Of a stretch of DNA of 64,000 bases, positions 45,968 through 56,563 are shown piece after piece. Each line of letters begins with the position of its first letter. The stretch's first letter is position 1. Source of the stretch: Catellatospora paridis (GTDB lineage: Bacteria; Actinomycetota; Actinomycetes; Mycobacteriales; Micromonosporaceae); assembly GCF_009720365.1 (NCBI RefSeq), contig NZ_ML769312.1:434001-498000 (forward strand). The letters are read 5' to 3'. Position numbers and translations under genes: made by a program. Under the pieces are notes generated by a model. That model was not told the DNA's origin. It searched no databases and saw only the letters and a program-made list of their open reading frames with translations.

Positions 45968-47977
45968 ATGGTGATGTCGCAGGCACGGCTGGCACTGCTC
46001 GACGGCAGCACCTTCTTCACCACGAACGGGCTCGGCGACACCGACACGGCTGACGACGGCCTGTACTTCGCCGACACACGGCACCTGTCGTCGTGGCGGC
46101 TGACTCTCGACGGCGCGGAACTGCACCTGCTCAGCTATGACACGCCGCAGTACTACTCGGCCCGTATCCACGCGACGCTGCCGTCGGTGAGCGTCGGCGT
46201 CAACCCGACGGTGTCGGTCCGGCGCGACCGGATCGTCGCGACCGGCGTGCACGAGGACCTGGTCCTGGAGAACTACAGCGACGAGGAGCGGGACCTGGTC
46301 GTGGAGCTGGCGCTGGACGCCGACTTCGCGGACATCTTCGAAGTCAAGGACGACAAGATCGGCTCCAGGCAGGTGGCCGTCGCCGTCGACACGGACACGA
46401 TCACCTTCGGGTACCGCAACGGCGACTTCACCCGCGCGACGAAGGTCGTCTTCTCCGAACCGGGCACCCTCCAGCCGACGGGCATGCGGTGGGCGATCCG
46501 GCTGCCCGCCCGCGGCACCTGGACCACCTGCATCGACGTGATCTGCTCCGACCACGACGGCGAGCACAAGCTCCGGGTGGGGCACGGCGGGTTCGGGCGG
46601 CTGCAGCCGGACATGCCGCAGACGATGCAGCAGTGGCTGGACGAGGCCCCGGTGCTGCACACGACCTTCGACCCGGCCCGGCACGCCTACCACCATGCCC
46701 TGCAGGACCTGGCCGCGCTGCGGTTCCATCCGATCCAGGGCTGCGTGCACTCGGTGCCGGCCGCCGGCGCACCGTGGTTCATGGCACTGTTCGGCCGGGA
46801 CAGCCTCATCACCGCCTACCAGGCGCTGCCGTTCCACCCCCAACTCGCCCGGACGACCCTGGACGCGTTGGCCATGGTCCAGGCGACCCAGGTCGACGAC
46901 TTTCGCGACGCCGATCCTGGCAAGATCCCACACGAACTCCGGCACGGTGAGCTGACCGCCACCGGCCGCACCCCGCACAGCCCGTATTACGGCTCGCACG
47001 ACGCGACCCTGCTGTTCCTCATCCTGCTCGACGAGTACGAGCGGTGGACCGCCGACACCGAAGTGGTCCACCGCCTGGAACCGGCGGCGCGCGCCGCCGT
47101 GGCCTGGATGCAGGGCCCGGCCGACCCCGACGGCGACGGCTACCTGGAATACCGCACCCGATCCCCGCAGGGCCTGGCCAACCAGTGCTGGAAGGACTCC
47201 TGGAACTCGATCATGTTCGCCGACGGCCGGGTCGCCGACCCGCCGATCGCCACCTGCGAGATCCAGGGGTACGCCTACGACGCGCGCCTGCGCACCGCGC
47301 GGCTGGCCAGGGAGTTCTGGCACGACACGGACTTCGCCGACCGGCTCGAACAGGAGGCGGCCGCGCTGCGGCAGCGGTTCAACACCGACTTCTGGATCGC
47401 CGAGCGCGGCCACTTCGCGCTCGCCCTCGACGGCGGCAAACGCCAGGTCGACGCGGCCACCTCGAACATCGGACACCTGCTGTGGAGCGGCATCGTCGAC
47501 GACGAGCATGCCGAGGCCACCGTCGCGCTGCTGCTCGACCCGAAGATGCACTCCGGTTGGGGGGTGCGGACCATGTCCAGCGCCGACCACGGCTACAACC
47601 CGATCGAATACCACAACGGCACGGTCTGGCCGCACGACACCGCGATCATCGCCGAGGGACTGCGCCGCTACGGGCACCGCGAACAGGCCGCCGAGCTCGC
47701 GGTCAAACTGCTGGAAGCAGCGGCGGCGTTCGGATACCGGCTGCCCGAGGTCTTCGCGGGCTTCAAGCGCCAGGGCAACAAGCCGGTCGAGTACCCCACG
47801 CCTTCCTCACCGCAGGCCTGGTCGGCGGGATCGGTGCTGCTGGTGCTGCGCACGCTGTTCGGCCTCGACGTCGAAGGCGGGACGCTGCGCTGGGCGGCGC
47901 GCCCCGCGGGGTTCGACGGCCCGATGCGCTTGGAGAACGTGCCCGTCCGCGGTCGGAGGCACACCGTCGAGATCTGA
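45968..47977 (+). CDS. Amylo-alpha-1,6-glucosidase / glycogen debranching-type enzyme
   Basis: 669 residues. The N-terminal beta domain (about 1-215) is the GDE N-terminal type: SQARLALLDGSTFFTTNGLGD, GLYFADTRHLSSWRL. The rest is a six-hairpin (alpha/alpha)6 barrel with APWFMALFGRDSLITAYQALPF, GTVWPHDTAIIAEGL and QAWSAGSVLL. The Asp in FGRDS and the Glu or Asp residues near the second and third segments would form the active site. It should trim alpha-1,6 branches or related glucans in the cytoplasm. GAGCGAGGG best fits the first ATG of an alternating GTG/ATG run. It stands alone, divergent from argG. Confidence 0.85.
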   Translation: MVMSQARLALLDGSTFFTTNGLGDTDTADDGLYFADTRHLSSWRLTLDGAELHLLSYDTPQYYSARIHATLPSVSVGVNPTVSVRRDRIVATGVHEDLVLENYSDEERDLVVELALDADFADIFEVKDDKIGSRQVAVAVDTDTITFGYRNGDFTRATKVVFSEPGTLQPTGMRWAIRLPARGTWTTCIDVICSDHDGEHKLRVGHGGFGRLQPDMPQTMQQWLDEAPVLHTTFDPARHAYHHALQDLAALRFHPIQGCVHSVPAAGAPWFMALFGRDSLITAYQALPFHPQLARTTLDALAMVQATQVDDFRDADPGKIPHELRHGELTATGRTPHSPYYGSHDATLLFLILLDEYERWTADTEVVHRLEPAARAAVAWMQGPADPDGDGYLEYRTRSPQGLANQCWKDSWNSIMFADGRVADPPIATCEIQGYAYDARLRTARLAREFWHDTDFADRLEQEAAALRQRFNTDFWIAERGHFALALDGGKRQVDAATSNIGHLLWSGIVDDEHAEATVALLLDPKMHSGWGVRTMSSADHGYNPIEYHNGTVWPHDTAIIAEGLRRYGHREQAAELAVKLLEAAAAFGYRLPEVFAGFKRQGNKPVEYPTPSSPQAWSAGSVLLVLRTLFGLDVEGGTLRWAARPAGFDGPMRLENVPVRGRRHTVEI

Positions 47978-48057
47978 CCGGCCAGCCCCTGCCTGCTCTA
48001 CCGGCCAGCAGCAGCGCCCGTCGTCCGCGGATCCCGGACGGCGCGCACAGCCCGTCG

Positions 48058-50643
48058 TCAGGCGGCGATGCCCTCGACCGGGCGGTCGAAGTGGCGGTGC
48101 GCGGCGATCGCGGCCGACAGGTCGGACAGGAACATGCCGTCGGCGACCTTGCCGGGAGCGAGGAAGACGACCCCGTCGAGCGCACCGGCGGCAGGCTTGC
48201 TGGGCGGCCCGGCGAGCCGGTCCGACGCCTCGTACACCGGCAGCCGTGCCGCCCGCACGAGCCGGTCGCCGACCCCGAGCACGCCGAGCGCCTTGCCGTG
48301 CTTGTACGCCTCCGCGACGAAGTGCACCGCACAGCCGTCGTTGACCAGCAGGTCCACTGCCGCATCGCCGTCGGCGACGACGACGGCGTCGTAGAGCACC
48401 GAGGCGACGGTGTTCATCGCCCGGTCCACCGGCAGCGCCCCGCCCGTCGACACGGTCACCGGCCCGTCGACCAGGCCGAGCACTTCCACCACCGCGCCGT
48501 CCAGGGTGAGGGCATCGCGGACGGTCTCCACACCGCCGTCGACGCCGTCCGCGACGAGCACCGCGACCTTGCGGCCGACGACGCCGGTGCTTCCGGGCAG
48601 GCCGGCCTGGCTCAGCGCCGGTGACATCCGGCCGTGGTTGGGCGGCCCCGCGGTCGGTGACGCCACCCCGATCCCCGCCGCCACCGCCACGGCGAGCTGG
48701 TGATCGATGTGGTTGAGATGCTCGACCATCCGCTCGCGGATGTGCGGGTGCGCGACCTTGCCGAGTTCGAAGCGGTACGCCGCGACGATGTGCTCCTTCT
48801 CCCAGGCGGCCATGCTGTTCCAGAACAGGGTGGCCTGGCTGTAGTGGTCGGAGAAGGTCTCCGAGCGCTTGCGCTCCTTGATCCCGTCCACATGTTCCGG
48901 CGTGTGCACGAACGCTCCGCCGCCCGCGCCCGGGACGATCGGGCAGCCGCCGCCCAGCGAGTTCGGGTGGTAGTTGGCCTGGCCGAGCGGAATGTCGTCC
49001 TGGTGGAAGCCGTCCTGCTGGTGGTTGCGCACCGGCGCGAGCGGCCGGTTGATCGGGATCTGTGCGAAGTTGGGCCCGCCGAGCCGGGTCAGCTGGGTGT
49101 CGAGGTAGGAGAACAGGCGCGACTGCAGCAGCGGGTCGTCGGTGAAGTCGAGGCCCGGCACGATGTTCTGCACGCAGAAGGCGACCTGCTCGGTCTCGGC
49201 GAAGAAGTTGTCCGGATTACGGTCCAGCACCATCCGTCCCACGGGGACGACCGGCACGACCTCCTCCGGGATGATCTTCGTCGAGTCCAGCAGGTCTATG
49301 TCGTCGAAGGCGAACTCGTCGTGCTCGGCGATCAGCTGCACGCCGAGCTCGTACTCCGGGTAGACGCCGGCCTCGATCGACTCCCACAGGTCGCGGCGGT
49401 TGAAGTCCGGGTCCTTGCCGGAGATCTTCTGCGCCTCGTCCCAGACCAGGGAGTGCACGCCCGCCACCGGTGTCCAGTGGAACTTGACGAACGTGCGGGT
49501 GCCGTCGGCGGCCACCAGCCGGAAGGTGTGCACGCCGAAGCCCTGCATGGTCCGGAAGCTGCGCGGCAGCGCCCGGTCCGACATCAGCCATATGACGTGG
49601 TGCATCGTCTCCGGCTGGAGCGTGACGAAGTCCCAGAACGTGTCGTGGGCCGAGGCCGCCTGGGGGATCTCGTTGTGCGGCTCGGGCTTCACCGCGTGGA
49701 TGACGTCGGGGAACTTGATGCCGTCCTGGATGAAGAACACCGGCATGTTGTTGCCGACGAGGTCGAAGTTGCCCTGGTCGGTGTAGAACTTCACGGCGAA
49801 CCCGCGCACGTCGCGCGGGGTGTCGGTCGAGCCGCGCGACCCCTGCACCGTGGAGAACCGCACGAACACCGGCGTGCGCACCCCCGGGTCGGTGAGGAAC
49901 CGTGCCGCGCACAGCCGCGCCAGCGTGCTGTCGTACGGCTGGAAGTAGCCGTGCGCGCCCGAGCCTCGGGCGTGCACCACCCGCTCCGGGATGCGCTCGT
50001 GGTCGAAGCGCATGATCTTCTCGCGGCCGTGGAAGTCCTCCAACAGGGCGGGCCCGCGCGGGCCCGCCCGCAGCCAGTTGTCGGTGTCCTCGACGCCGAT
50101 GCCCTGGTCGGTCGTCAGCTCGGTGTCGAGCTTGGCCATCCGGTGGGGGTCGAGCTGTGCCACCTTGGTGTCGCCGCCAGGCGCGGGTTGCGCGGCTGCG
50201 AGCCGCTCGGCGCGGGCGAGCGCCTCGGCGACAGCAGCCGGGGCCAGGCGGGATCCGGCCTTCTTGGCCGGGACGGTCTTAGCCTTGGGTCCGGCCTTGG
50301 CAGCGGTCTTCTTGGCCGGGATGGTCTTAGCCCTGGGCCCGGTCTTGGTAGCGGCTTTCTTGGCCGGGACGGCCTTCGCCCCCGGCCCGGCCTTGGCTGC
50401 GGCGACTTGAGCGGCGCCCTTCTTGGCCGTGGGCCTGCGCGAGGGGGCCGCCTTCGCGGCAGGGGCCGTCGTCGAGCCTGCGGTCTTGGCTGCGCGGGCA
50501 CCGGACGGGGCGGGCGGCGGTGCGGCCGCGCGCTTGGCGGCCGTCTTCTTCGCCGGGCTGCTCTTCGCGGCCGCTTTCACGGCACCGGCCTTCTTCGCGG
50601 TCGGCTCGTCCGGGCCTGTAGACCTGCGCTGCCTGGCTGTCAT
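48058..50643 (-). CDS. katE: Large-subunit (KatE/HPII-type) catalase with histone-H1-like N-terminal tail
   Basis: 861 residues. Residues 1 to about 130 are almost only A, K, P, T, G and R, with PAKK motifs and a 16-residue unit repeated three times, like histone H1 or mycobacterial HupB tails. The catalase core begins near 160: the distal His 224 ([14 protein letters not shown]), GNNMPVFF at 297-304 and the proximal Tyr in [16 protein letters not shown]-terminal DJ-1/PfpI-like domain (about 710-861, [14 protein letters not shown]) is usual for large catalases. The core should remove hydrogen peroxide; the tail probably binds DNA. Its ATG overlaps the stop of the hemerythrin gene, so both are made together. 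Confidence 0.92.
50261..50404 (-). repeat. Three tandem 48-bp repeats encoding the catalase tail
   Basis: Exact 48-base periodicity: units at 50261-50308, 50309-50356 and 50357-50404 each begin TTCTTGGCCGGGA on the plus strand. In the protein each unit is a 16-residue block of pattern GPxAK-x2-PAKK-x5, so the repeat expands the basic tail in frame. Such repeats can change length by slippage between strains. Confidence 0.85.
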
Positions 50644-51209
50644 GACCGTACCCCGCTTCCCCCTGCTGACTGCGCGAGCAGCTCACGGACCCGATCGAAC
50701 ACCTCGTCCGGAGGTCCCGCCAACGGCCGGGACTCGCCGGTGGCCACGTCCGGATGGGCGGCGGACGGGGCCAGCAGCTGCGCGGCCTGCACGACCGCTT
50801 CCATACGGGCCAGCTCGGCGGGGTCGGTGACCTCGCGCAGCCGCAGGAACTCCAGCTCCTCCTCGGCTTCCGCGTGGGCGGCCACGGCGTCGCGCAGCAC
50901 GGCGAGCTGAGCGTCGAAACCGGCGTCCGCCACGCCCCGGGCGTACAGGTCGGACAGCGCCTGCCTCGCCTCGTCCTCCTCGGCCAGCCGCGCCGGCACG
51001 AGCTTCGGCCCGTCCGGCAGATCCCGCTCCGCGAGCGGGTGCACCAGGTGCTGCTCCACGGTCTCGTGCACCGCCAGCGTGGCGACGAGCTCGGTGAACA
51101 GTTCCTGCTTGTGCTCCCGGGTGGCGGACTCGACCTGAGCGAACAGCAGTTTGATCTGCTGATGCTGGCCGAGCAGGGTGTCGATGACATCTTGCCGGGC
51201 TGTGGTCAT
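50640..51209 (-). CDS. Hemerythrin HHE-domain protein
   Basis: 189 residues. Helices with DTLLGQHQQIKLLF, LVATLAVHETVEQHLVHPLAE and AAHAEAEEELEFLRL give the His/Glu ligand set of a di-iron hemerythrin four-helix bundle (about 8-135). The C-terminal 50 residues (HPDVATGESRPLAGPPDEVFDRVREL) are typical of actinobacterial members. These proteins handle oxygen, peroxide or nitric oxide. Four-base overlap with the catalase start indicates coupled translation and a shared oxidative-stress role. GGAG six bases before the ATG sets the start; a longer frame to 51434 has no support. Confidence 0.88.
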   Translation of the reverse strand: MTTARQDVIDTLLGQHQQIKLLFAQVESATREHKQELFTELVATLAVHETVEQHLVHPLAERDLPDGPKLVPARLAEEDEARQALSDLYARGVADAGFDAQLAVLRDAVAAHAEAEEELEFLRLREVTDPAELARMEAVVQAAQLLAPSAAHPDVATGESRPLAGPPDEVFDRVRELLAQSAGGSGVRS

Positions 51210-51419
51210 GATGCGCTCCGTTCGGCCGACGGTCTGGGTCCGTCGCCGACAGCGAGCCGGTGTCCCCGGTGAACCGGGCTGCGGAGAAGTGCCTGGACCA
51301 GTCTGAATGCACGGTACCCAACCGCTACCTGCGCAAATGCGACTTTGCCCAATGTCTGGGGACGTCCAGCTTTCACCGGGCCGGGTGGCTTCGGTGGCGC
51401 GCGTTCGGCTGGTGGCACG

Positions 51420-51449
51420 GCAGGCGGCGGCCAAGCGGCCGCCGCCTGC
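51420..51449 (-). terminator. Terminator of the SRPBCC gene
   Basis: Perfect 13-base arms GCAGGCGGCGGCC/GGCCGCCGCCTGC with a four-base AAGC loop lie seven bases after the SRPBCC stop. The remainder of 51210-51419 carries the start region of the hemerythrin gene and no frame I would call. Confidence 0.7.
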
Positions 51450-51455
51450 TGATGA

Positions 51456-51929
51456 TCAGGCCCGGTGGGCTCCGGGCGCGTCGATCTCGCCGCGCCAGGC
51501 GCCCGTCTCGTGGCCGAGGTCCTCGATGAACTCCTTGAAGCCCGCGACGTCGGCCTTGACCTGGCGGCTGTCCACGCCGATGGCGCTGCCGAGGTTCTCC
51601 ACGAATCCCTCCGGCTCCCAGTCCAGCTGGACGGTCACCCGGGTGTCGTCGTCGCTCAGGCGCTGGAACGTGACGACTCCGGCGTGGTGCATCTCGCCGC
51701 CGATGCTCTTCCAGGCGATCCGCTCGTCCGGATGCTGTTCGGTGATCTCGGTGTCGAACTCCCGCACCGCCCCGGCGATGTCGACCACCCAGCGGCTGTG
51801 CGTCTCATCGATCTGCCGGACCGACTCCACACCCTTCATGAAGTGCGGGAACGACTCGAACTGGGTCCACTGGTTGTAGGCCGTGCGGACAGGCACATGC
51901 ACGTCGACGGACTCGGTCACGGTGCTCAT
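51456..51929 (-). CDS. SRPBCC (cyclase/dehydrase-like) family protein
   Basis: 157 residues with the START/Bet v 1-like fold of the polyketide cyclase-like group: VTESVDVHVPVRTAYNQWTQFESFPHFMKGV, then DETHSRWVVDIAGAVREFDTEITEQHPDERIAWKS. Members of this subgroup are common stress- or membrane-associated proteins in actinobacteria, without a known reaction. GGAGG before the second possible ATG sets the start. An inverted TTGAC...GTCAA (51941-51957) lies just upstream and may be its operator or promoter part. Confidence 0.85.
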   Translation of the reverse strand: MSTVTESVDVHVPVRTAYNQWTQFESFPHFMKGVESVRQIDETHSRWVVDIAGAVREFDTEITEQHPDERIAWKSIGGEMHHAGVVTFQRLSDDDTRVTVQLDWEPEGFVENLGSAIGVDSRQVKADVAGFKEFIEDLGHETGAWRGEIDAPGAHRA

Positions 51930-51998
51930 CAGGGTCCTCCTTGACAAATCAGGTCAAAAGACGGCTACCCCGATCGCGCTCCGTCAAACAGCAGACCG

Positions 51999-52928
51999 TC
52001 AGGTCGGCGGCCAGGAGCCGGTGATGTCGTCGGCGACCTCGTGCAGCAACCGCAGGAACGTCGCCACCATGGGCGTGACGCCGTGGTCGGCCGCGGTGAC
52101 GGCGTAGAGGCTGCGGCTCAGCTCCGACCCAGCCAGTCCGCGGTGGACGGTGCCGGGCAGGTGCGTCAGCGCCAGGCGCGACACCAGCGCCACCCCGACG
52201 CCCGTGGCCACGAACGCCTGCGCGACGTCATAGGACTCGGTCTCGAATCGCACCCGCGGCACGAAGCCCGCCGCGGCGGCGGCCCGGTCGAACTGGGCGC
52301 GGGCCGCATGACCCGCCCGGATCGTCACCCACGCCTCGTCGCGCAGCCGCCCGAGGTCGATCGCGGACGCCGACGCGTCCCGCGCCAACTCGTGGTCGTC
52401 CGGCAGCACGACCACCATGGGGTCGATGAGCAGCGGATGCAGCCGGACGTGGTCCGGCGGCACGGGCGGCCGATCCCACGCCGCGACGACCGCGACGTCC
52501 ATCTCGCCCGCCGCGACCGCGGGAACACCACGATCGGACGTGATGTCCATGATCGATAGATCGGTGGCCGGATACCTGTGCCGCAGCGCGGTGAGCGCGG
52601 CCGGCAGCACGTGCAGGGCCGCGGCCTGGAACGCCCCGATCCGCAGCCGCAGCGACAGCCGCCCGAGCAGGCCGTCCAGGTCGGTTGCAGCCCTGGCGGT
52701 CTCCTCGTCGATCACCCGGCCGTGGCCGGCCAGCAGCATCCCGGCCTCGGTCAGCGTGGCTCCCCGCGGTCCGCGCCGCACCAGGCGCGCCCGGCAGTCG
52801 CGCTCCGCCTTCGCCACCTGCTGGGTCACCGCCGCCGGTGTCAGCCCGAGCGCCTGCGCGGCCGCCGCCAGCGACCCGTGCCGGTCGATGAGCGCGAGCA
52901 GCCGCAGCGCCTCGGGGCCTAGTGCCAT
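51999..52928 (-). CDS. LysR-family transcriptional regulator
   Basis: 309 residues. The helix-turn-helix is at the N-terminus (ALIDRHGSLAAAAQALGLTPAAVTQQVAKAER), followed by a substrate-binding domain of two lobes (about 90-300) with LRIGAFQAAALHVLPAAL and ESYDVAQAFVATGVGVALVSRLAL. It is divergent from a LysE-type exporter gene 70 bases away, the standard arrangement in which the regulator senses the exported amino acid or related compound. The gap (52929-52998) has A/T-rich TTAA pieces but no operator I can define. Confidence 0.9.
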   Translation of the reverse strand: MALGPEALRLLALIDRHGSLAAAAQALGLTPAAVTQQVAKAERDCRARLVRRGPRGATLTEAGMLLAGHGRVIDEETARAATDLDGLLGRLSLRLRIGAFQAAALHVLPAALTALRHRYPATDLSIMDITSDRGVPAVAAGEMDVAVVAAWDRPPVPPDHVRLHPLLIDPMVVVLPDDHELARDASASAIDLGRLRDEAWVTIRAGHAARAQFDRAAAAAGFVPRVRFETESYDVAQAFVATGVGVALVSRLALTHLPGTVHRGLAGSELSRSLYAVTAADHGVTPMVATFLRLLHEVADDITGSWPPT

Positions 52929-52998
52929 TCACAAAGCTTAAGTCAGGCGTCATGATCTTTAACTTCTCTGAACACCGGTTCCTTGCCATCGTGGAGGC

Positions 52999-53625
52999 AT
53001 GCCTACGCACCTTCCGCTGTTCATCGGCACCACCTGGCTGCTGGCCATGCTGCCCGGCGCCGGACAGGCGCTGATGCTGCGCCAGACCCTGCACGGTGGA
53101 CCCCGCGCGGCGTGGGCGAGCATCGCCGGCACCTGCACCGGCCTGCTCACCTGGACCGTCGCCGCCGCTGCGGGGCTGTCGGCGGTGCTGCTGGCCAACC
53201 CGCACGCCTACACCCTGCTGCGGCTGGCCGGCGGTGTCGTGCTCGCCCTGCTCGGCGTCAGCACGCTGCGCGCCATGCGCCGGCAGCCGGCGACCGGCCC
53301 GGCACCCTCACCCGTGATCGACACCCGCGGCCGCTGGGGCGCGTACACCGCCGGACTGGCCACCAATCTCGGCAACCCCAAGGCCGGCGTCTTCGCCGTC
53401 TCCCTGCTGCCGCAGTTCGTCACCCACAACGGGCCGGTGTTCGCCTCGAGCGTCGCCCTCGGTGCGCTGTGGGCACTGGTCACCGCCGGCTGGTACGTGC
53501 TGTTCACCTGGGCGGTCAACCGCGGTCGCACTCTCGTGTCGAAGCCGGCGGTCCACCGCAGGCTGCAACTGCTCACCGGCGGCACGCTCGTGTGCCTCGG
53601 CGCGGCGGTGGCGCTGGGCGGGTGA
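52999..53625 (+). CDS. LysE/RhtB-family exporter
   Basis: 208 residues with five or six membrane helices and the LysE/RhtB pattern: an N-terminal LPGAGQALMLRQTLHGGPRAAWASIAGTCTG (normally PGP), a central GVVLALLGVSTL and the second conserved piece GLATNLGNPKAGVFAVSLLPQFV. It should export an amino acid or derivative; the divergent LysR gene probably controls it. GGAGG lies before the ATG. The last 318 bases are overlapped by the frame of the convergent MFS gene. Confidence 0.88.
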   Translation: MPTHLPLFIGTTWLLAMLPGAGQALMLRQTLHGGPRAAWASIAGTCTGLLTWTVAAAAGLSAVLLANPHAYTLLRLAGGVVLALLGVSTLRAMRRQPATGPAPSPVIDTRGRWGAYTAGLATNLGNPKAGVFAVSLLPQFVTHNGPVFASSVALGALWALVTAGWYVLFTWAVNRGRTLVSKPAVHRRLQLLTGGTLVCLGAAVALGG

Positions 53626-55852: not shown

Positions 55853-55990
55853 CGCTCCTGTCACACGCGTCAGCGCTTCCGTTGTCGGAATGCCGTCGTG
55901 GCGTTGTGAGGGCTCTGTCCGGGTGCCACAGTGCGTTGGCCTGCGGCGGTGTTCGCCCCGGGCGTTGCGGTAGCACGGTGGAGGGAACCA

Positions 55991-56563
55991 GTGAGTTTCA
56001 CGAAGGACGACGGCCCGGCGCTCGCCGGGTTCACGGCCGCGCTGCAGGCCGGCGGTTACGGGCTGCCCGATCCGTCGGTGGCCGGTCATGGGCACGCGCA
56101 CGGCACGGACGGCGTGTCGACGTCGGTGCGCACCGCGGTGCACCGCGGGCGGGAGATCCGGATCGAGACCACCTACAAGATCACGATCGACGGCAAGCCG
56201 CTGGAGGGCGGCCTGGAGGTGCTCGACAACGGCGCGGTGCACTACCACGGGCTGCCGCAGTACGCGCTGCCGTCGGCGATCGACATGTGCAAGCGGGTGC
56301 TGGACTACTTCGGCACCGAGCCGCCGGCCGTCGACGAGCTCGGCTGCCTGCTCGGCGAGCACGGCGAGCACTGCGGCAACGGCACCACCTGCTGCGTGGA
56401 CGACAAGGACCACCAGCACGGCACGGAGCACGAGCACGGTGCGGAGCACGAGCACGGTGCGGAGCAGGAGCACGGTGCGCAGCCGCAGCCGGCGGCGCCG
56501 GTCCCGGCGCAGCCGTCGCACGACCACGACCGGCACCAGCACCACGGGGAGGGGCACCGGTGA
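55991..56563 (+). CDS. MelC1-like tyrosinase copper chaperone with His-rich tail
   Basis: 190 residues. The middle (about 40-112) follows the MelC1 caddie pattern: HRGREIRIETTYKITIDGKPL, a turn, then DNGAVHYHGLPQYALPSAIDMCKRVLDYF, matching the part of MelC1 that feeds copper into tyrosinase. Classical MelC1 is shorter and has a signal peptide; none is seen here. The C-terminus (about 125-190) is an unusual His-rich tail including CC and three EHEHGA-type repeats, probably binding several coppers. GGAGGG sets the GTG. Its stop overlaps the tyrosinase GTG, so the two are coupled. Confidence 0.72.
   Translation: MSFTKDDGPALAGFTAALQAGGYGLPDPSVAGHGHAHGTDGVSTSVRTAVHRGREIRIETTYKITIDGKPLEGGLEVLDNGAVHYHGLPQYALPSAIDMCKRVLDYFGTEPPAVDELGCLLGEHGEHCGNGTTCCVDDKDHQHGTEHEHGAEHEHGAEQEHGAQPQPAAPVPAQPSHDHDRHQHHGEGHR
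56426..56479 (+). repeat. Three tandem 18-bp repeats in the His-rich tail
   Basis: Units GAGCACGAGCACGGTGCG at 56426 and 56444 are identical; the third at 56462 has one change (CAC to CAG). Each encodes EHEHGA or EQEHGA. Confidence 0.85.

Follow-up and report, generated by a model that had tools for sequence, protein, structure and literature searches.

Why would a large catalase carry, at its N terminus, a lysine-rich tail that resembles part of a histone, and why is its gene joined to one for a hemerythrin-like protein? The question is raised by a katE-like gene of Catellatospora paridis, which lies in a 64,000-nucleotide stretch of DNA (assembly GCF_009720365.1, contig NZ_ML769312.1, positions 434,001 to 498,000), here called the window, from a genome of 9.0 Mb. 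A first-pass annotation made from the letters of the window had likened the tail to those of mycobacterial HupB and histone H1 and had suggested that it might hold the enzyme at the nucleoid. The features that bear on this suggestion are as follows, in window coordinates.

48058-50643, minus strand: katE-like gene for an HPII-type large-subunit catalase of 861 aa (ORF list; Pfam, NCBIfam and PDB sequence matches)
48058-50151, minus strand: catalase core, residues 165-861, plus the stop codon (Pfam and homolog alignment)
50152-50238, minus strand: junction segment, residues 136-164, with an alanine-rich stretch of 18 letters (alignment; conserved in the tailed Catellatospora rows)
50239-50643, minus strand: Lys/Ala/Pro-rich tail, residues 1-135, net charge +31 (composition)
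50256-50403, minus strand: 48-bp tandem repeat in frame with katE, encoding three 16-aa blocks that end in PAKK (tandem repeat call)
50640-51209, minus strand: hemerythrin-like (HHE) gene, 189 aa, which overlaps the katE start by ATGA (Pfam PF01814)
51314-51338, minus strand: candidate sigma-B-like promoter, ATTTGC-N13-GGGTAC, some 129 nt upstream of the hemerythrin ATG (alignment and pattern scan)

Catalase core

The katE ORF opened with ATG at 50643. Its product contained the Pfam Catalase domain at residues 177-564 of the 861, followed by Catalase-rel and a C-terminal Catalase_C/DJ-1-like domain, with all three above the Pfam cut-offs, which places it among the large-subunit catalases. The score against the NCBIfam equivalog for E. 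coli HPII (NF008422) was below the curated cut-off (985.3 vs 1102 bits). The top PDB sequence matches were KatE/HPII enzymes, whose alignments began at residue 156 or 157, and the nearest named catalase, that of Catellatospora citrea, was 92% identical to the katE product. In a 34-row homolog alignment, numbered one lower than the protein as its first row is without Met1, H224 and Y513 were invariant, while in the VGNN motif N298 was nearly invariant and N299 invariant. We take the active-site roles of these His, Asn and Tyr residues to be those of HPII, and given this conservation the enzyme looks intact. The core (residues 165-861) had a net charge of -29, so that an entire subunit is near neutral. 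An Rfam scan of positions 47500-53000 gave no matches.

Composition of the cationic tail

The tail (residues 1-135) was 32.6% A, 17.8% K, 12.6% P and 9.6% T, with one D and one E. The first-pass annotation had counted about 130 extra residues of A, K, P, T and G and had traced three blocks to an in-frame 48-bp repeat; both descriptions held, with about 135 residues and a tandem repeat of period 48 (3.1 copies, 84% matches, score 212). The repeated A/K/P/T blocks, KK pairs and high positive charge of actinobacterial lysine-repeat tails were all found in katE. Across 807 windows of 135 aa drawn from the 44 codon-like ORFs of the 64 kb, the mean net charge was -2.4 (sd 6.2); every one of the six windows richest in lysine fell within katE, and the highest net charge elsewhere was +21. 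Repeat number, counted by eye, varied among relatives, with three copies of the 16-aa block in the window and in locus L003 (C. vulcania) and a single copy in L006 (C. sichuanensis), L008 and L004.

Translation and selection of the tail

Translation might begin downstream of the tail, leaving a mature enzyme without it, and the first-pass annotation had named such a start as fatal to its proposal. Within the tail the only in-frame ATG, GTG or TTG was GTG at codon 22; the next were GTG 161 and ATG 169, and a start at either would give a protein of 701 or 693 aa, close to the size of tail-less homologs. However, ATG 169 lies within a block that aligns with tail-less homologs, and the ATGA at 50640-50643 is common to the katE start and the hemerythrin stop, an overlap kept with GTG in L003 and with ATG in L006, while the tail frame is open in tailed relatives. 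Six pairwise comparisons gave a dN/dS of 0.26-0.46 for the first 164 residues, a range made rough by gaps and repeats in the tail alignments, vs 0.13-0.16 for the core. The tail thus evolves under purifying selection. On these four grounds we rejected a downstream start, which we regard as highly improbable. Chance composition or a wrong reading frame was ruled out by the 807-window comparison together with the dN/dS values. GC contents at codon positions 1/2/3 were 0.68/0.72/0.84 in the tail and 0.71/0.43/0.96 in the core, a difference that makes codon-position GC alone a weak proof.

Lysine clusters elsewhere in the genome

The whole 9-Mb genome was scanned with two patterns that describe clusters of AAGAAG codons; these gave 28 and 22 matches, all in seven genes, against 0 for the reversed-pattern controls in the same genome. 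The genes were katE and those for a long-tailed HU, an H1-like protein of 400 aa, Ku, topoisomerase I (TopA), the principal sigma factor and a phasin-like protein, which at 27.2 bits fell short of its 28.8 cut-off. The second pattern matched katE by design, its gap range having been widened to take in the katE spacing, so that its result is the other genes; it matched in each of the 11 genomes of the genus. Codon choice and spacing affect what either pattern can match, and further carriers may therefore be missed. The 400-aa protein, at C7:94839-95627 (L063), is almost entirely K/T/A/P repeats and matched the histone H1-like Hc2 family (48.0 bits, cut-off 40).

In segments cut by eye, net charge per residue was 0.33 for the H1-like protein, 0.30 for TopA, 0.27 for HU, 0.23 for katE, 0.21 for Ku, 0.15 for the sigma factor and 0.14 for the phasin-like protein. 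The katE tail is within the range of the lysine-rich segments of its own genome in both composition and charge density. The likeness to HupB and histone H1 was therefore borne out within the genome, where lysine clusters of this kind are found on HU, the Hc2-like H1 protein, Ku, TopA and the principal sigma factor. This gene list is close to that of the lysine repeats reported for Streptomyces, in TopA, HrdB, Ku and HupS (PMC7398561), and the lysine-repeat tails of mycobacterial HupB and HbhA are reported to bind DNA (PMC10665949).

However, cationic repeats lack specificity for DNA; the PAKK-type tail in HbhA, for one, is known as a heparin-binding adhesin tail too (PMC3293801). The katE tail might bind a polyanion other than DNA (RNA or ribosomes, polyphosphate, envelope or spore polymers), which would place the catalase off the nucleoid. 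The presence of a phasin-like protein among the seven matched genes would agree with this, but five of the six genes other than katE belong to DNA-handling families, and we consider such a role unlikely, if less so than the other alternatives weighed here.

Distribution of the tail

Tails were measured in the best 120 of 7998 scored homologs, and a core tree was built from 66 rows, namely the window, two loci and 63 of the 120 homologs. In it a 32-row clade (SH-aLRT 97) held 26 with a net tail charge of +4 to +34 and 6 without a tail, including 4 Catellatospora rows; outside it a cationic tail was found in 1/34 rows. The search for the tail in other large catalases, which the first-pass annotation had called for, thus shows it to be lineage-specific. 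Among the best homologs the named carriers were Catellatospora, Longispora, Allocatelliglobosispora and Catelliglobosispora. In Catellatospora itself, 11 genomes contained 12 large catalases, 8 of them tailed (in 7 genomes) and 4 tail-less, and 2/40 further Micromonosporaceae loci were tailed; these 40 had been chosen by eye from the lower-scoring part of the matches listed, and two of them (L159, L177) proved distant. The 52 loci compared leave out 30 (L110-L139) of a second, higher-scoring Micromonosporaceae type of large catalase. On the tree of the 52 there was a single tail change. In C. sichuanensis we observed two tailed katE genes (L006 and L008; 836 and 792 aa), both accompanied by a hemerythrin gene of their own.

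A homology search with the tail alone was of little use, since the sequence is of low complexity, and the two codon patterns took its place. In the genome of the window, with 150 of 557 candidates scored, it returned katE as well as weak matches at three places (E 0.02-0.83), none of which has a lysine tail, and in the protein database four catalases, all from Catellatospora, among 7993 candidates scored.

The absence of a tail from 6/32 clade rows indicates that it is not essential to the enzyme, and the tail could simply be a tolerated low-complexity expansion, or an aid to solubility or stability, with no localizing role. Tail length (26 to 164 aa among the tailed proteins of the best 120) and repeat number vary, several clade tails are short and weak (+4), and the tail dN/dS exceeds the core value about two- to threefold. 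Yet the tail is under purifying selection, its charge stays positive in the 26 rows despite sequence drift, acidic residues are rare in the long tails, and lysine is preferred over arginine in a GC-rich genome, with K/(K+R) at 0.73 vs 0.30 in the core. Set against these observations a neutral or merely stabilizing tail appears distinctly unlikely.

The hemerythrin partner

The gene that overlaps the katE start encodes an HHE-domain protein (PF01814, 45.5 bits vs a cut-off of 25.3). The coupling proposed in the first-pass annotation is thus supported by the domain and by the ATGA overlap, and it is conserved in tailed relatives. An intact hemerythrin gene was directly upstream in 9/10 tailed loci and in 0/42 tail-less loci, where absence means no tblastn match (E <= 1e-3) in a locus of about 4 kb and where the contig of L169 ends at the gene, with its upstream side unseen. 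The Fisher value for this association (2.7e-9) was set aside, there being a single tail change and one independent pair; since the tail arises once on the 52-locus tree, the link amounts to one event, not ten. In the tenth tailed locus (L049, genome G007) the upstream hemerythrin gene is cut to 44 residues, and the tail has thus outlasted its partner there. Outside the 52 loci, in an Actinomycetota MAG (L020), a catalase that has no such tail adjoins a divergent hemerythrin gene on the opposite strand. Contigs of equal length suggest that the hemerythrin-katE pair is also present in Longispora urticae and several metagenome contigs, and one catalase of this group (P0022) was recorded without a tail.

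Within 5-kb flanks, a debranching-enzyme gene was common to the window, L003 and L006, LysR and LysE genes to the window and L006, and an SRPBCC gene to the window and L008; none of these was found within the 5-kb flanks of L004, L005 or L014.

The first-pass annotation had proposed that the partner was an oxidant sensor or scavenger. We found no support for a sensor. Mycobacterial hemerythrin-like proteins are reported to have weak catalase and NO-peroxidase activity (PMC8913304), and by analogy a second scavenger is the likelier role.

Candidate promoter motif

The pattern used for SigB-family promoters was of the Streptomyces type (GTTT/GNNT at -35, GGGTAC/G-like at -10, spacer of 12-15 nt; PMC8346170). 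The motif was first spotted in the alignment, and relatives that match it are not independent. A relaxed form of the pattern matched upstream of the pair in 6/10 tailed loci: in the window, where A replaces G at the first -35 base, and in L003, L006, L054, L004 and L005, where GTTT is paired with GGGTAC or GGGTAG at -112 to -130. The regions upstream of the pair in L008, L014, L140 and L049 were unmatched. Dinucleotide shuffles of each 300-bp region matched in 0.1-0.7%. The motif is consistent in form with the SigB-family promoters known from S. coelicolor (PMC8346170); dpsA is among the genes that promoters of this class drive (PMC3184153).

A second sigma-B-like motif, GTTTGAC...GGGGTAG, was observed at 51965-51989 (minus strand) before the SRPBCC gene (51456-51932) that adjoins the unit; its pattern had only three matches in the 64-kb window, both strands included.

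A histidine-rich ORF in the window

At 55931-56563 (plus strand) a 210-aa ORF has a histidine-rich tail of GAEHEH repeats, with an 18-bp tandem repeat at 56407-56483, and gave no Pfam match. It lies directly before a tyrosinase gene (PF00264, 56560-57552); its product is a possible partner of the enzyme in copper handling.

Discussion

Our preferred reading, which we hold to be about evenly balanced between true and false, is that the hemerythrin and katE genes form a stress-induced unit in which the histone-like tail tethers the catalase to the nucleoid, where it would guard DNA. Stress or development would lead to the hemerythrin-like protein and the catalase being made together. The catalase subunits would assemble, presumably as tetramers by analogy with HPII, so that each oligomer would carry several flexible cationic tails, and these could make non-specific, multivalent contact with the chromosome in the manner of the lysine tails of actinobacterial HU, TopA and Ku. 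Kept beside DNA, the enzyme would destroy peroxide before it met DNA-bound iron, with less local Fenton damage as a result. We infer that the enzyme is tetrameric, that the tail is disordered, binds DNA and places the enzyme at the nucleoid, that control of the unit is of sigma-B type and that DNA is protected. The selection on the tail, its kept positive charge and the hemerythrin link count in favour of a tether, as do its composition and charge density; the acidic core, the variable strength of the tail and the tail-less sister species call for caution. It is a more tentative proposition, which we rather doubt, that the catalase has become a nucleoid-associated protein outright, with peroxide-destroying oligomers on the chromosome in stress or sporulation under sigma-B-like control such as that of dpsA, a hemerythrin-like scavenger made in step, and DNA protection built into one polypeptide.

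Nucleoid fractions of S. coelicolor contain SODs and AhpC, and the 'armour hypothesis' stated in that work holds that antioxidant enzymes in nucleoid preparations protect DNA, such fractions also carrying much unavoidable contamination (PMC3784963); catalase is not named in the main text of the survey. A term search of the main text of a bacterial catalase survey (PMC8017148) did not find 'extension' or 'fusion', and the best-ranked matches in the open-access literature, to which our search was confined, contained no catalase with a histone-like tail.

The katE product shares its domains and conserved core with the HPII/KatE catalases, but most relatives are without such a basic tail. Its partner has the HHE domain expected of a hemerythrin-like non-haem catalase of the Rv2633c type; the mycobacterial hemerythrin-like proteins Rv2633c and Mka HLP are tied to peroxide chemistry (PMC8913304). 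With the tails of HupB/HupS, TopA, Ku and HrdB the katE tail has in common the A/K/P/T-rich composition, the PAKK or AKK motifs and the scarcity of acidic residues, and the same protein classes bear lysine tails in the genome of the window. However, the katE tail is on a metabolic enzyme and is N-terminal; the lysines of HU, TopA and Ku in this genome are C-terminal and those of the sigma factor N-terminal. E. coli MnSOD (PMC3784963) and Dps with its lysine-rich N-terminus (PMC10536872) provide superoxide or peroxide defence on DNA, as predicted for the katE tether, but neither is a haem catalase and the parts of these sources that we cite describe no dedicated histone-like repeat tail of such length. 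The katE product brings known parts together in a new way, as a catalase that bears a histone-like lysine-repeat tail. On our preferred reading it would exemplify, within a single protein, the 'tethered antioxidant' idea already in print. What we propose as the tether is a peptide that can be separated from the enzyme and that varies in nature, and since one genus offers both tailed and tail-less related catalases (8 and 4 loci), removal or transplantation of the tail tests directly whether the site of peroxide destruction matters for DNA. If the tether is real, lysine-repeat tails would extend from DNA-handling proteins to a detoxifying enzyme.
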